Of a stretch of 27,532 nt of DNA, positions 5,208-12,481 are shown in pieces (position 1 is the first letter of the stretch; each line of letters opens with the position of its first letter). Made by a program: the position numbers and the translations under genes. The DNA comes from a virus: IMG/VR virus record IMGVR_UViG_3300035703_000366, positions 1 to 27,532 of that record. One strand, given 5' to 3'. Under the pieces are notes generated by a model. It saw nothing but the letters and a program-made list of their open reading frames with translations, was not told the DNA's origin and made no database searches.

Positions 5208-5663
5208 TTGAAACATAAACATCATGTCATTCCTAAACATATGGGTGGGAGCGACGAACCTGAAAATATAGTAGAACTTTCTATTGAAGAACACGCAGAA
5301 GAACATAGGAAACTATACGAACTGCATGGTCATTGGCAAGATTTAGTGGCTTGGAAAGGCTTGTTAGGTCTGCTTACTTCAGATGAATGCACCTTCATAG
5401 CTATTACAAAAGGAGCTAGAAAGGGTGCTGCGATAGTTAACGCTAGAAGAGCTATACCAGGCAAGGATCCAAAACTTCCTTACCACAAATGGTTGAGTGG
5501 TTATTCCCAAGACGTTGATGGTCGAAAAGTTCGAACTAAGAGATTTTGGTTTAACGATGGCGTTTCAGAAGGGCAATTTTCTTTAGAGGATTTCCCTGAA
5601 GGATGGAAAAGAGGAAGGTTAAAAAGTTCCACTTCCAAATCCTTCAAAAATGTTTCTTTATGA
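5208..5663 (+). CDS. HNH homing endonuclease inside the tmRNA intervening segment
   Basis: The gene starts at TTG with GGAGG 6 nt upstream. The 151-residue protein begins directly with the HNH nuclease core: HHVIPKHMGG at 5-14, EPENIVELSIEEH at 17-29, and H33. The His pair, Asn20 and downstream His residues are as in phage HNH endonucleases. The C-terminus has WFNDG...PEGWKRGR (114-137), the NUMOD-like DNA-binding motif common in phage homing enzymes. The stop (5661-5663) is separated by a single base from the first nucleotide of the tmRNA coding piece, and the gene begins 57 nt after the acceptor CCA. It therefore occupies the spacer normally removed from permuted pre-tmRNA, where it need not harm the mature RNA. 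The target is probably the empty spacer in related phages or host ssrA; this is inferred. Confidence 0.9.
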   Translation: MKHKHHVIPKHMGGSDEPENIVELSIEEHAEEHRKLYELHGHWQDLVAWKGLLGLLTSDECTFIAITKGARKGAAIVNARRAIPGKDPKLPYHKWLSGYSQDVDGRKVRTKRFWFNDGVSEGQFSLEDFPEGWKRGRLKSSTSKSFKNVSL

Positions 5664-8855: not shown

Positions 8856-8885
8856 AAAGGGGAGATTAAAATCTCCCCTTTTTTT
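8856..8885 (+). terminator. Rho-independent terminator after gp32
   Basis: AAAGGGGAGAT (8856-8866) pairs with ATCTCCCCTTT (8871-8881) around a TAAA loop and runs into a T tract to 8885. It lies between the convergent gp32 and the minus-strand operon. The 3' T tract partly overlaps the stop codon of the minus-strand gene, so no room is left between them. Confidence 0.93.
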
Positions 8886-10926
8886 ATGTATATACGCCGC
8901 CTATCTTTAATCCTTTATATGCTACTCTTCCTGCTAATTGATCGACCCAAGAAAGAGAAGAACTTGGCGTTGGACTAAAGATATTATGATCAGCTGTAGT
9001 CATTGATGGTTGTCTTTGAATATTATTTTCAATTCTTGTTTCTTTAACAGGAACCTGATTATTAAGTTCTGCTATTGTTTTTTCCATTGACAATGAATTT
9101 GATAAAGAAGTTACTCTAGGATCTTCTTTTGAAGCATTTATCATAGTTGCATCTGACTTTGTTTCATTTTTAGTTTGTAATTTTTTGTTAGCTAAACTAG
9201 GAGTTTCTTTTTCAATATACTCTTTATTATTCATAGAGTCTAAACTAGAAACTAAACTAGGTAAAATACTACCTAAGCCGCCAACCATTGAACCTAACAT
9301 ACCACCGCCGCTCAAAAATCCAGCTCCGGCTTCTCCAAATCCAGTTAATGTTGATAGAGCACCAGCTAATCCGGAAACCATTCCTTCAAATGGTGAACCT
9401 GCAAACGGATTCATATTTCCTCCACCTGCTGTACTACTACCACTTTCTCCGCTCAAACCAGTTGATCCTGTGGCGCTTCCACTTTCAGCTGGATTAGCTG
9501 GAGCTTGACCACCTCTAATAGCGGAAACTGCGGTTGAGCCTTCTGTTTTTTGTTTGTGTGGGTTTATTTCACCATGACCGTAAACCTGATTTGGCGCATA
9601 ACCAAGTTGAGCAGCTAATCTTTTTGCTGCTTCTACTTGAACAGGTAAAACATCGGAGTCGTTTTTAGCTATTATTTCTACGCCTTCTGTGTTGCTGTTT
9701 GACAACCCTTGTCCTACGCCCTGCCCCTTCTTTATATGACTTCCTTTAGCACCGGAAGGCAATAACTGATGTATATTACCTTCTCTATCAATTACAAATT
9801 GAACCGAAAGACCTCTTTGATTAAGCGTGTCTATAACTCCACCAACATCTCCTCGCCCGCCAGTATGATGAATAATAAATCCTTTACGATCTTTTAATTG
9901 ACCGGAGCCGTCTAAAGAACCCATGCTATTCGACACTTGATTTTTATCGTCCGAATCAGCTTCTACTGGAGTTACTTGTGAAGAATTTTCTTGGTTTCCC
10001 TGACCAGAATTTGAATTGAAAATATCCAACCATTTCTTTTGATAACCTGCTGGATTAATAGTTGGATTACGAGATTGAGCTTCTTCGCTAATTTTACCTT
10101 GAGGGTTTCCGGTAAACCAAACTAAAGGAACCTTTGAGACATCATTATTATTTTGAGATAATATTTCTTCAACATATTTTGCTGCGACAGCGTCCTGTAT
10201 TTCAGGCGGAGCATTCATAGCTCTTTTAAAATCTGTTCCTATATTATACTTTTGAGTTAAGTTTTGCCAAGTGCTATCAATAAACTGATATGCTCCTGAA
10301 GCCGAACTTGCTCCAGCTTTGTTAGGAGTTGTGTAATCGCCATTTGACTCTAAAGTTCTTATAGTTTTTAAAATTTCTTCAGTAGATCCGGATATTGGTT
10401 CGCCGCTGTATAAGGATCCATCACCATTTCCGCCGCCTCCTATTTGTTCAGCTCCGGCGCTTCCTGCTTGGACTAAGCTCATTAATCCAGCTCCTATACC
10501 AGCAGTTGCAGCCGCTCCTCCGAGCATGCCTAAACCTGCACCAGCCATATTTCCAAAACTGAAAGAACTTTGGCCAGAAGCTTGTTGAAATAGTTGAACT
10601 AATGAACCCATGCTGTTAGCAATATCTTTAAGCTGAAATACCATTTGATTTTGCACAGATACGCTTTCTTGAAAAGCAGCTTCAAGTTCGTTTAAATTTT
10701 GATTGGTGGCGTTAGATTGTCTTTCGACTTCATTCAAACTTTCATTCATGCTTGACTGTTGTCTGTTTTGAGTTACAAAAAACTTACTAGACAAATCTTC
10801 CATAAATTTCGTAATGGAATAGTTTTGTTTTTCAGCTTCCATTCTAAATTCTCGGCTTTCTTCGCTGATACTACTCATACCAGATTGAATGCTATAAACT
10901 ATTTGTTGTAAAACTTCTTCTTCCAT
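8884..10926 (-). CDS. Tail hub or tape-measure-like protein with transglycosylase and amidase domains, 680 aa
   Basis: Residues 1-115 are coiled-coil-like helices (gp29/tape-measure style), followed by a Gly/Ala-rich hydrophobic stretch (125-165). Residues 183-305 form a lytic transglycosylase-like domain: LKTIRTLESNGDY, with probable catalytic Glu193, then SSASGAYQFIDSTWQ. Residues 345-475 are an N-acetylmuramoyl-L-alanine amidase: FIIHHTGG (350-357) and YGHGEINPHKQ (449-459) carry zinc-ligand histidines. A second Gly-rich hydrophobic region (500-560) and a polar tail follow. It would cut peptidoglycan during DNA injection, a job done in T4 by gp5 lysozyme. It sits right behind gp26/gp51, where other phages place the tape measure. 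The ATG overlaps the gp51 stop (TAATG) and has no clear ribosome-binding site. Confidence 0.85.
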   Translation of the reverse strand: MEEEVLQQIVYSIQSGMSSISEESREFRMEAEKQNYSITKFMEDLSSKFFVTQNRQQSSMNESLNEVERQSNATNQNLNELEAAFQESVSVQNQMVFQLKDIANSMGSLVQLFQQASGQSSFSFGNMAGAGLGMLGGAAATAGIGAGLMSLVQAGSAGAEQIGGGGNGDGSLYSGEPISGSTEEILKTIRTLESNGDYTTPNKAGASSASGAYQFIDSTWQNLTQKYNIGTDFKRAMNAPPEIQDAVAAKYVEEILSQNNNDVSKVPLVWFTGNPQGKISEEAQSRNPTINPAGYQKKWLDIFNSNSGQGNQENSSQVTPVEADSDDKNQVSNSMGSLDGSGQLKDRKGFIIHHTGGRGDVGGVIDTLNQRGLSVQFVIDREGNIHQLLPSGAKGSHIKKGQGVGQGLSNSNTEGVEIIAKNDSDVLPVQVEAAKRLAAQLGYAPNQVYGHGEINPHKQKTEGSTAVSAIRGGQAPANPAESGSATGSTGLSGESGSSTAGGGNMNPFAGSPFEGMVSGLAGALSTLTGFGEAGAGFLSGGGMLGSMVGGLGSILPSLVSSLDSMNNKEYIEKETPSLANKKLQTKNETKSDATMINASKEDPRVTSLSNSLSMEKTIAELNNQVPVKETRIENNIQRQPSMTTADHNIFSPTPSSSLSWVDQLAGRVAYKGLKIGGVYT

Positions 10927-11108
10927 TACACGCTATTCTTTTTTTGTTTTTCTACTTCTTCTAAAAACTGTAGTAACAAGTTTACATATACATCTCTTTC
11001 AAACGGTATAAGATTTTCAATTTCAGTTATTGAGTATTTATGGTGCTGAGCCAAAGAAAAAATTACTTGGTAGTAATTCTTTAAGGTATTGTGACTCAGC
11101 GCAAGGAA
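10926..11108 (-). CDS. 51: gp51-like baseplate hub assembly ORF, expressed by -1 frameshift from gp26
   Basis: After the slip at 11108 the -1 frame encodes 60 residues to TAA at 10928-10926: FLALSHNTLKNYYQVIFSLA, then HHKYSITEIENLIPFERDVY, then VNLLLQFLEEVEKQ. The HHxYSIxEIExxIPxERDVYVNLL pattern is the one I recall in short gp51 proteins of marine T4-like phages (T4 gp51 itself is longer, 249). The frame contains no ATG or GTG start with a ribosome-binding site, only a TTG in poor context. It overlaps the gp26 stop. The simplest reading is a gp26-gp51 fusion of about 294 residues made by a fraction of ribosomes. In T4, gp51 is needed for hub assembly but is not in the virion. Confidence 0.8.
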   Translation of the reverse strand, partial: FLALSHNTLKNYYQVIFSLAQHHKYSITEIENLIPFERDVYVNLLLQFLEEVEKQKKNSV

Positions 11109-11809
11109 AAAAAATCGCTAAGTTTGTTCAAAACTATTTCTCTATCATTTCCTAAACTATTTTTATACTTTATTGTATGTTCCAACTTTGGAGTTGATAG
11201 TAAAAATGATTGAACTTGTTCAAAAACCTTAACACTTAGGTTTTCTAAAAACGTTTCTATGTCTTTTTTGGCGAAATTTTTAGCTTCATATACTTCTTCA
11301 CCACTATAAATTTTATCAACACATCTTACAATCAGTTCGAACAGGTGATCCTTTTTTAAACTCAAAAAATCTTTATCCGAATACAACGAAGCTGAAGGAT
11401 AATTCATAATAATACCAGATTGACTGTTAATTTTGATATTATTATTAGCTTTTTCAGAAAAAACGACTTTAATTTCCTCAATATCTACTTCAAAATCGTA
11501 AATTTTTGAGTCTTCAAAGTCTTTAAATGTTATTTTTACGATATTATCTATCGAAATACTTCTCAATTTTAAAAAAATGTATTCTAAATCAAAAATAGAC
11601 AACTTATCTACGACTAATTTCTTATCCAAACAACAATTTTGTACAATTTGCTTAATTGCAACGAAAATATCTGTTTCAGACTTACTTTCTTTAGCCATTA
11701 ACAATATTTTTTCTTCTTTTACCAAAAAAGGTCTAAATTTATACTCTTTTTTTAGAGAAGGAACGTTAATACTAAAGATAGGATGATCTATTGTAGGCAA
11801 TTTATTCAT
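11096..11809 (-). CDS. 26: Baseplate hub assembly protein gp26
   Basis: The N-terminus, MNKLPTIDHPIFSINVPSLK, followed by YKFRPFLVKEEKILLMAKES and FDLEYIFLKLRSISI, is the signature of the T4_baseplate/gp26 family in T4-like phages. A TTG 12 nt upstream is also in frame, but ATG at 11809 is chosen because TGAGGT lies 5-6 nt upstream of it. The product is 237 residues (T4 gp26 is 208). The final codons GAT TTT TTT TCC contain a T-TTT-TTT slippery heptamer just before the TGA, giving access to the gp51 frame. In T4, gp26 takes part in assembling the central hub. Here it may act like tail assembly chaperone G of lambda. Confidence 0.88.
   Translation of the reverse strand: MNKLPTIDHPIFSINVPSLKKEYKFRPFLVKEEKILLMAKESKSETDIFVAIKQIVQNCCLDKKLVVDKLSIFDLEYIFLKLRSISIDNIVKITFKDFEDSKIYDFEVDIEEIKVVFSEKANNNIKINSQSGIIMNYPSASLYSDKDFLSLKKDHLFELIVRCVDKIYSGEEVYEAKNFAKKDIETFLENLSVKVFEQVQSFLLSTPKLEHTIKYKNSLGNDREIVLNKLSDFFSLR
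11108..11114 (-). promoter_or_regulatory. -1 programmed frameshift site T-TTT-TTT
   Basis: On the minus strand, eight T residues (11114-11107) fall as GAT-TTT-TTT-TCC in the gp26 frame. This gives an exact X-XXY-YYZ heptamer of T only. A -1 slip continues as TTC CTT GCG CTG AGT into the gp51 frame and bypasses the gp26 TGA at 11098-11096, only three codons later. I did not find a convincing Shine-Dalgarno stimulator upstream or a strong downstream pseudoknot by eye. Confidence 0.75.
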
Positions 11810-11824
11810 TATAAACCTCAAAAA

Positions 11825-12481
11825 TTAAGCTGATTCTAACTGTGTAGGCGAATTTGTAGCGATCTTTGATCCAACGAACGAGTAATTTGAAAAAGTTATA
11901 GAAACTGCTATTCTTATTAGATCTTGATTGTCGTTCCAACCTAAAGGTATTTGACCTATTGAAGTTGGAAAAGCTCGATATAGATTAACTGTTCTTACTA
12001 TTTCTTTAGCATCGTTATATAAAACGATCATCATAGTTGTTGCGTATTCGTCTTTGTATTCTACAGTATAAGTTGGTATTCTTTCTCCGGCAAATATATT
12101 ATTACCGTTTGGTTCTAGCCCATTAAAATTAAAAATACCATTAATCCAGTTATACCAAAAATCAAAAAGATCTGTATTTCTATCAAGTAGTATAGAAAAT
12201 GTATTATCATAAAGTTGTGCGTTATACGGAGTTTTTTCGGAAATACCTACACCGTATCTAACAATATCTGTTGAAAGTAAATTCGCTCCTGGTATTCTAA
12301 CTTGTTCTATTCTAAATCTAAGCAACTCATTTAGATCTTTAATAGCGACTTCTCTATTATTAACTCTTAATGTTCTATTAGCCATAAACCTAGGAGGCTG
12401 AACAAATACTTCAAATTTGTTATTTTTGATGTACCCGTAGTTGTTTAAATTTTCTTTAAAATTTTGTATGTTGAACGCCAT
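11825..12481 (-). CDS. Tail-tube-fold baseplate protein, possibly gp54 (tube initiator)
   Basis: The 218-residue protein has the tail-tube type of beta-rich sequence. It opens with FNIQNFKENLNNYGYIKNNK and FEVFVQPP, continues with IEQVRIPGANLLSTDIVRYG (about 58-77), and ends with IRIAVSITFSNYSF near residue 200. Strand patterns alternate with a helix DLFDFWYNWING (about 104-115). In T4, gp19, gp48 and gp54 share this fold. Because gp48 is on the other strand and this gene sits with gp26 and the hub, gp54, which starts tube growth on the baseplate, is the best guess. gp19 is less likely because major tube genes lie next to the sheath gene. AAGGA precedes the ATG. It ends 15 nt before the gp26 start. 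Confidence 0.7.
   Translation of the reverse strand: MAFNIQNFKENLNNYGYIKNNKFEVFVQPPRFMANRTLRVNNREVAIKDLNELLRFRIEQVRIPGANLLSTDIVRYGVGISEKTPYNAQLYDNTFSILLDRNTDLFDFWYNWINGIFNFNGLEPNGNNIFAGERIPTYTVEYKDEYATTMMIVLYNDAKEIVRTVNLYRAFPTSIGQIPLGWNDNQDLIRIAVSITFSNYSFVGSKIATNSPTQLESA

Follow-up and report, generated by a model that had tools for sequence, protein, structure and literature searches.

A putative gp26/gp51 tail assembly chaperone gene with a -1 frameshift site in an uncultivated T4-like phage

Frameshifting of the lambda G-T type was described in a 2016 review (PMC5009743) as widely conserved in long-tailed phages 'except T4'. The corresponding chaperone genes of T4-like phages were identified by Vladimirov, Gautam and Davidson (2022, Virology 566:9-15), as that work is cited in two later papers: the PRFect paper (PMC10885494) cites it for the presence of one short and one fused chaperone gene in T4-like phages, and in the paper on phage Adele (PMC12846349) it is the reference for poly-T signals of -1 frameshifting in the TAC-N genes of these phages. 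Our literature search combining gp26, gp51 and frameshift yielded no paper on point, and the key reference was reached through the PRFect paper. The initial annotation of the locus analysed here had supposed a gp26/gp51 frameshift to be undescribed, a supposition that must be given up in view of what the 2022 study is cited for. Since the frameshift is cited as known in T4-like TAC-N genes, the present finding, though correct, is a rediscovery made in a new member. The 2022 study is said to name T4 genes 26 and 51 and to find frameshifting retained in several T4-like groups.

The DNA analysed, hereafter the window, is an IMG/VR record of 27,532 bases representing a fragment of a T4-like phage and carrying gp32, gp2, gp6 and baseplate genes. 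An ORF at 5208-5663, starting MKHKHHVIPKHMGGSDEPENIVELS, bears by eye a likeness to HNH-type endonucleases. Along the minus strand the tail tube gene is followed by gp26, a gp51-like frame and a 680-residue gene in the tape-measure position, with the following features:

11825..12481, minus strand: tail tube protein (phrog_45 / gp19-like, from profile matches), directly upstream of gp26
11096..11809, minus strand: gp26 / TAC-N, putative short tail assembly chaperone, 237 aa (PF12322, 6e-52; phrog_150, 5e-56)
11108..11114, minus strand: slippery heptamer T-TTT-TTT inside a T8 run, in gp26 codons ..GAT TTT TTT TCC.., with the same phase in relatives
10926..11108, minus strand: gp51 / putative TAC-C domain of 60 aa, read in the -1 frame and lacking a usable start codon (phrog_634 match)
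8884..10926, minus strand: gene in the tape-measure position, 680 aa, its ATG overlapping the gp51 stop

The gp26 product scores 176.9 bits against Pfam PF12322 (T4_baseplate), well above the curated cut-off of 24.5. The junction has the sequence AGC GAT TTT TTT TCC TTG CGC TGA, placing the heptamer three codons ahead of the gp26 stop. Translated from 11108 to 10926, the -1 frame gives FLALSHNTLKNYYQ...KNSV*, a peptide matching the profile of PHROG 634 (gp51, hub assembly catalyst) at 3.6e-26 (about 4e-26); its stop codon, TAA at 10928-10926, and the start codon ATG of the gene that follows overlap as TAATG. Re-reading of the ORFs and the junction reproduced exactly the coordinates and frame relation first given for the locus, and the window sequence confirms that the gp51-like frame joins gp26 in the -1 frame at a slippery heptamer. 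As in the G/GT type of locus, a short ORF is followed by an overlapping -1 extension, with a heptamer near the stop of the short ORF. In the -1 frame the T run is closely preceded by a TAG, and no ATG, GTG or TTG occurs ahead of a TTG lying within the conserved gp51 domain. The original statement that the gp51 frame lacks a credible start therefore stands for the window, but not for many relatives, in which ATG, TTG or GTG is found in or near the overlap.

The position of the locus, between the tail tube gene and a putative tape measure gene, is also that of the G/GT type. In all 58 relatives with enough flanking sequence, the tail tube gene lies upstream and a homologous or equally placed long ORF downstream; in Cr30 and HTVC008M the downstream gene is annotated as tape measure. 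The protein in this position in the window (8884-10926) contains an amidase domain (Amidase_2, 7.5e-10) and matches lytic transglycosylase weakly.

Relatives were gathered from IMG/VR viral contigs and named phages, the latter including the Kyanoviridae S-PM2, HTVC008M and S-CRM01, Caulobacter phage Cr30, Sinorhizobium phages phiN3 and phiM9 and, among Straboviridae, Aeromonas phages 65 and Ah1. They comprised 89 distinct loci, extended to 96 distinct gp26 proteins. Conservation of the T run and of the -1 relation in other T4-like phages had been set beforehand as a check, and both are kept: gp51 is found in frame -1 relative to gp26 in 89/89 loci, and T TTT TTN occurs in gp26 phase near the gp26 stop in 96/96 proteins, including one (L051) where the script had placed the heptamer one codon downstream. 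The third base of the preceding codon is T in every one of the 96, although the residue encoded varies (S, D, N, A, H, T). The first heptamer codon is always TTT and the second TTC (58), TTT (34), TTA (3) or TTG (1), and the distance from the first codon of the pair to the gp26 stop is mostly 3 or 5 codons (range 2-10). In the remainder of these genes 71% of Phe residues are encoded by TTT, and a T at the third base of the preceding codon has an expected frequency of about 63%. We give counts rather than a P value, since related sequences are not independent and a naive value would be too small; judged by these codon frequencies, the conservation of the heptamer is not due to chance. The -1 relation together with T TTT TTN extends across Kyanoviridae, Emdodecavirus, Pootjesviridae and some Straboviridae.

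Among the GenBank entries, those of phages 65 and Ah1 have no CDS over the gp51 domain and that of HTVC008M has one starting late (L113, L114, L112), probably for want of a good start codon in that frame. Ackermannviridae phage SFP10 and a related Klebsiella phage (L117, 2007-2813; L118, 2007-2810) carry a gp51-like domain in the -1 frame after gp26, where no gp51 is annotated; they lack the T TTT TTN heptamer (GAG ATT TTC ATT TAA) and may use a different slip site. In Acinetobacter phage ZZ1 (L121, 2500-3255) the gp51 frame is apparently shifted after about 70 residues and annotated as overlapping CDSs, which may reflect sequencing error, decay or recoding.

The RNA 3' of the window heptamer is predicted to fold with a minimum free energy of -21.2 kcal/mol (z -3.9), forming a 9-bp stem that begins 7 nt past the heptamer:

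11092..11100, minus strand: 5' arm of the downstream stem (fold and covariation)
11045..11053, minus strand: 3' arm of the downstream stem (fold, covariation, and synonymous-codon nulls against interior controls)
11057..11082, minus strand: inner 11-bp hairpin in the stem loop, in the window and a near-identical contig (L004), related sequences folding variants of it

The 7-nt distance from heptamer to stem applies to the window's clade; when 13 members of this clade were aligned, 93% of stem cells were paired. Columns 20-65 (G-C, A-U, G-U) and 21-64 (U-G, C-G, U-A) pair in 13/13 sequences, and the covariation score was equalled by 4 of 500 shuffles; two pairs have changed on both sides, a number that, taken as a measure by itself, does not exceed the shuffles. 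Since both arms are coding, shuffling of synonymous codons downstream of the gp26 stop was employed as the null, and the mean z was -2.1 in the clade that includes the window and -1.7 in 81 others, to be compared with -0.3 to -0.7 for seven control windows in the gp26 interior. The downstream stem is thus stronger than the synonymous-codon controls predict.

A further element lies upstream. Relatives with an E-G codon pair there use GAG in 39/54 cases (27% elsewhere), and G is the last base of the Leu codon before it in 30/41, the two together producing GGAGG about 10 nt before the heptamer; the window itself contains no GGAGG when searched before its heptamer. The spacing between GGAGG and heptamer resembles that of the dnaX stimulator.

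Structural comparison was based on an AlphaFold2 model of gp26 built from 60 relatives (pLDDT 92). The top three matches were Rbstp2171 (3fgx, Z 8.3), HK97 gp13 (2ob9, 7.4) and YqbN (3klu, 7.0), all treated as tail assembly chaperones (PMC9603447), and the next reached Z 3.9. The matches span about 86 N-terminal residues, the best being limited to residues 6-96. By this comparison gp26 shows the chaperone fold with moderate Z values; since such middling values are common, we take the match as support and not as proof. Plain Foldseek of gp26 against the PDB gave nothing at E<0.001, with the HK97 chaperone 2ob9 at rank 8-9. Against the sequences of solved structures, the gp26 profile gave only chance-level matches and T4 gp51 no match.

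T4 presents a different arrangement, genes 26 and 51 lying on opposite strands. T4 gp51 matches PF12322 over residues 1-201, followed by the gp51 domain, and covers phrog_150 to position 280 of 282; T4 gp26 covers that profile only to position 235 and its gene ends GAG TTC TTT GAG TTA CTA TAA, without the heptamer. The two align by BLASTP (E 2e-6) and, on this sequence evidence, are paralogues, with gp51 corresponding to the complete fusion in a single reading frame and gp26 to the short form. A tree of 34 sequences unites the T4-clade proteins, short and long alike, in one group (97/97) that excludes every frameshift form; this grouping is consistent with a single duplication, although several branches are long. 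Enterobacter phage EC-F2, a Pseudotevenvirus, carries the long gp51 form and the short gp26 form in tandem on one strand with an 8-nt overlap (L120, 2501-3794), in contrast to the opposite strands of T4, and this arrangement may record the original duplication. Since T4 encodes short form and fusion as separate paralogous genes, the situation that the initial annotation regarded as contrary to its proposal, an independent gp51 without a slippery run, does occur there, but as a derived replacement yielding the same two products. Judging from its separate genes 26 and 51, T4 itself uses no frameshifting here; separate duplicated genes can take over from programmed frameshifting.

Transcriptional slippage, reinitiation and sequencing error are all unlikely accounts of the locus. 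Production of gp51 as a separate protein, with translation reinitiating past the gp26 stop or coupled to termination there and with no fusion made, might be argued from S-PM2, Cr30 and others, which have an ATG near the gp26 stop and a separately annotated gp51. However, 34 of the 89 loci, the window among them, contain no ATG, GTG or TTG in the gp51 frame ahead of the domain, the strict conservation of heptamer and frame would go unexplained, and in T4 the fusion is encoded as one protein, so that we consider separate production highly improbable. Slippage of RNA polymerase on the T run, rather than of the ribosome, would be in keeping with the T8 of the window, but most relatives have only T TTT TTC, often with six Ts, while the codon phase is that of a ribosomal heptamer and the downstream stem stands at ribosomal spacing; it seems equally improbable. 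Homopolymer runs are error-prone, yet the same frame relation recurs in a separate contig (99% identical gp26 protein) and in the other distinct relatives, and this conservation refutes sequencing error or decay of a gene split by an indel, whose likelihood is practically negligible.

A different objection concerns function, since gp26 is 'baseplate hub' in T4 annotation and in its PHROG label and might be a structural hub subunit instead of a chaperone. Set against this are the fold match, the apparent G/GT-like expression in two forms and published proposals of a chaperone role (PMC9024508; Vladimirov et al. 2022), which leave the hub reading very unlikely.

With these alternatives weighed, the locus most likely encodes a lambda G/GT-type chaperone pair, TAC-N and TAC-NC, produced by -1 frameshifting just before the tape-measure gene. 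The proposal that gp26/gp51 are tail assembly chaperones made in this way, advanced in the initial annotation, finds support in the frame, heptamer, conserved fusion, gene position and fold, and very probably gp26 and gp51 form one chaperone gene whose fusion product arises, as in G/GT, by -1 ribosomal frameshifting. The sequence analysis itself establishes the frames, the heptamer and its conservation, the stem, the match in fold, the order of the genes and the paralogy in T4; that ribosomes shift frame in vivo, how efficiently they do so and that the products act as chaperones is what we infer. Most ribosomes would stop at the gp26 TGA, yielding TAC-N. A minority would pause at T-TTT-TTT ahead of the downstream RNA stem and slip back one base, both Phe tRNAs re-pairing, so that gp26 and gp51 would be translated as one fusion protein, TAC-NC. 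If the analogy with lambda G/GT holds, TAC-N would form a coat on the tape measure protein, the product of the adjacent gene, and tail tube subunits would be brought in by the gp51 portion of TAC-NC.

We advance more tentatively, judging it somewhat less probable than its opposite, the idea that two conserved and so far undescribed stimulators govern the frameshift, one a stem downstream that overlaps coding sequence, the other, in many cyanophage-type members, GGAGG about 10 nt upstream, and that the T4 branch escaped recoding when one duplication gave it separate genes for the short and the fused form. The stimulator details, namely the downstream stem and the GGAGG upstream in relatives, might be unreported so far. 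Through this locus gp26 and gp51, baseplate factors of T4 that have long been annotated as parts of the hub or as catalysts, are connected with the lambda-type chaperones responsible for loading the tape measure, a link already published; our survey contributes a broad collection of sites together with a candidate for the stimulator, which would make the mechanism easy to test.

As regards known systems, E/E' of the contractile-tail phage P2, a chaperone pair with a -1 frameshift, resembles gp26/gp51 by description, and we know of no close sequence similarity between lambda gpG/gpGT and gp26/gp51. In lambda, too, a short chaperone and a version of it extended by -1 frameshifting act on the tape measure protein (PMC5009743), but the slippery site is a different one. 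The TAC locus of Pseudomonas phage Adele (Vandenendeviridae) shares the conserved -1 frame and a T-rich slippery site before the tape measure, although its motif is GTTTTT and the phage family is another (PMC12846349). Closest are the T4-like TAC-N and TAC-NC of Vladimirov et al. (2022), as that work is cited: the genes and the family are the same, and the window adds a further, uncultivated member.
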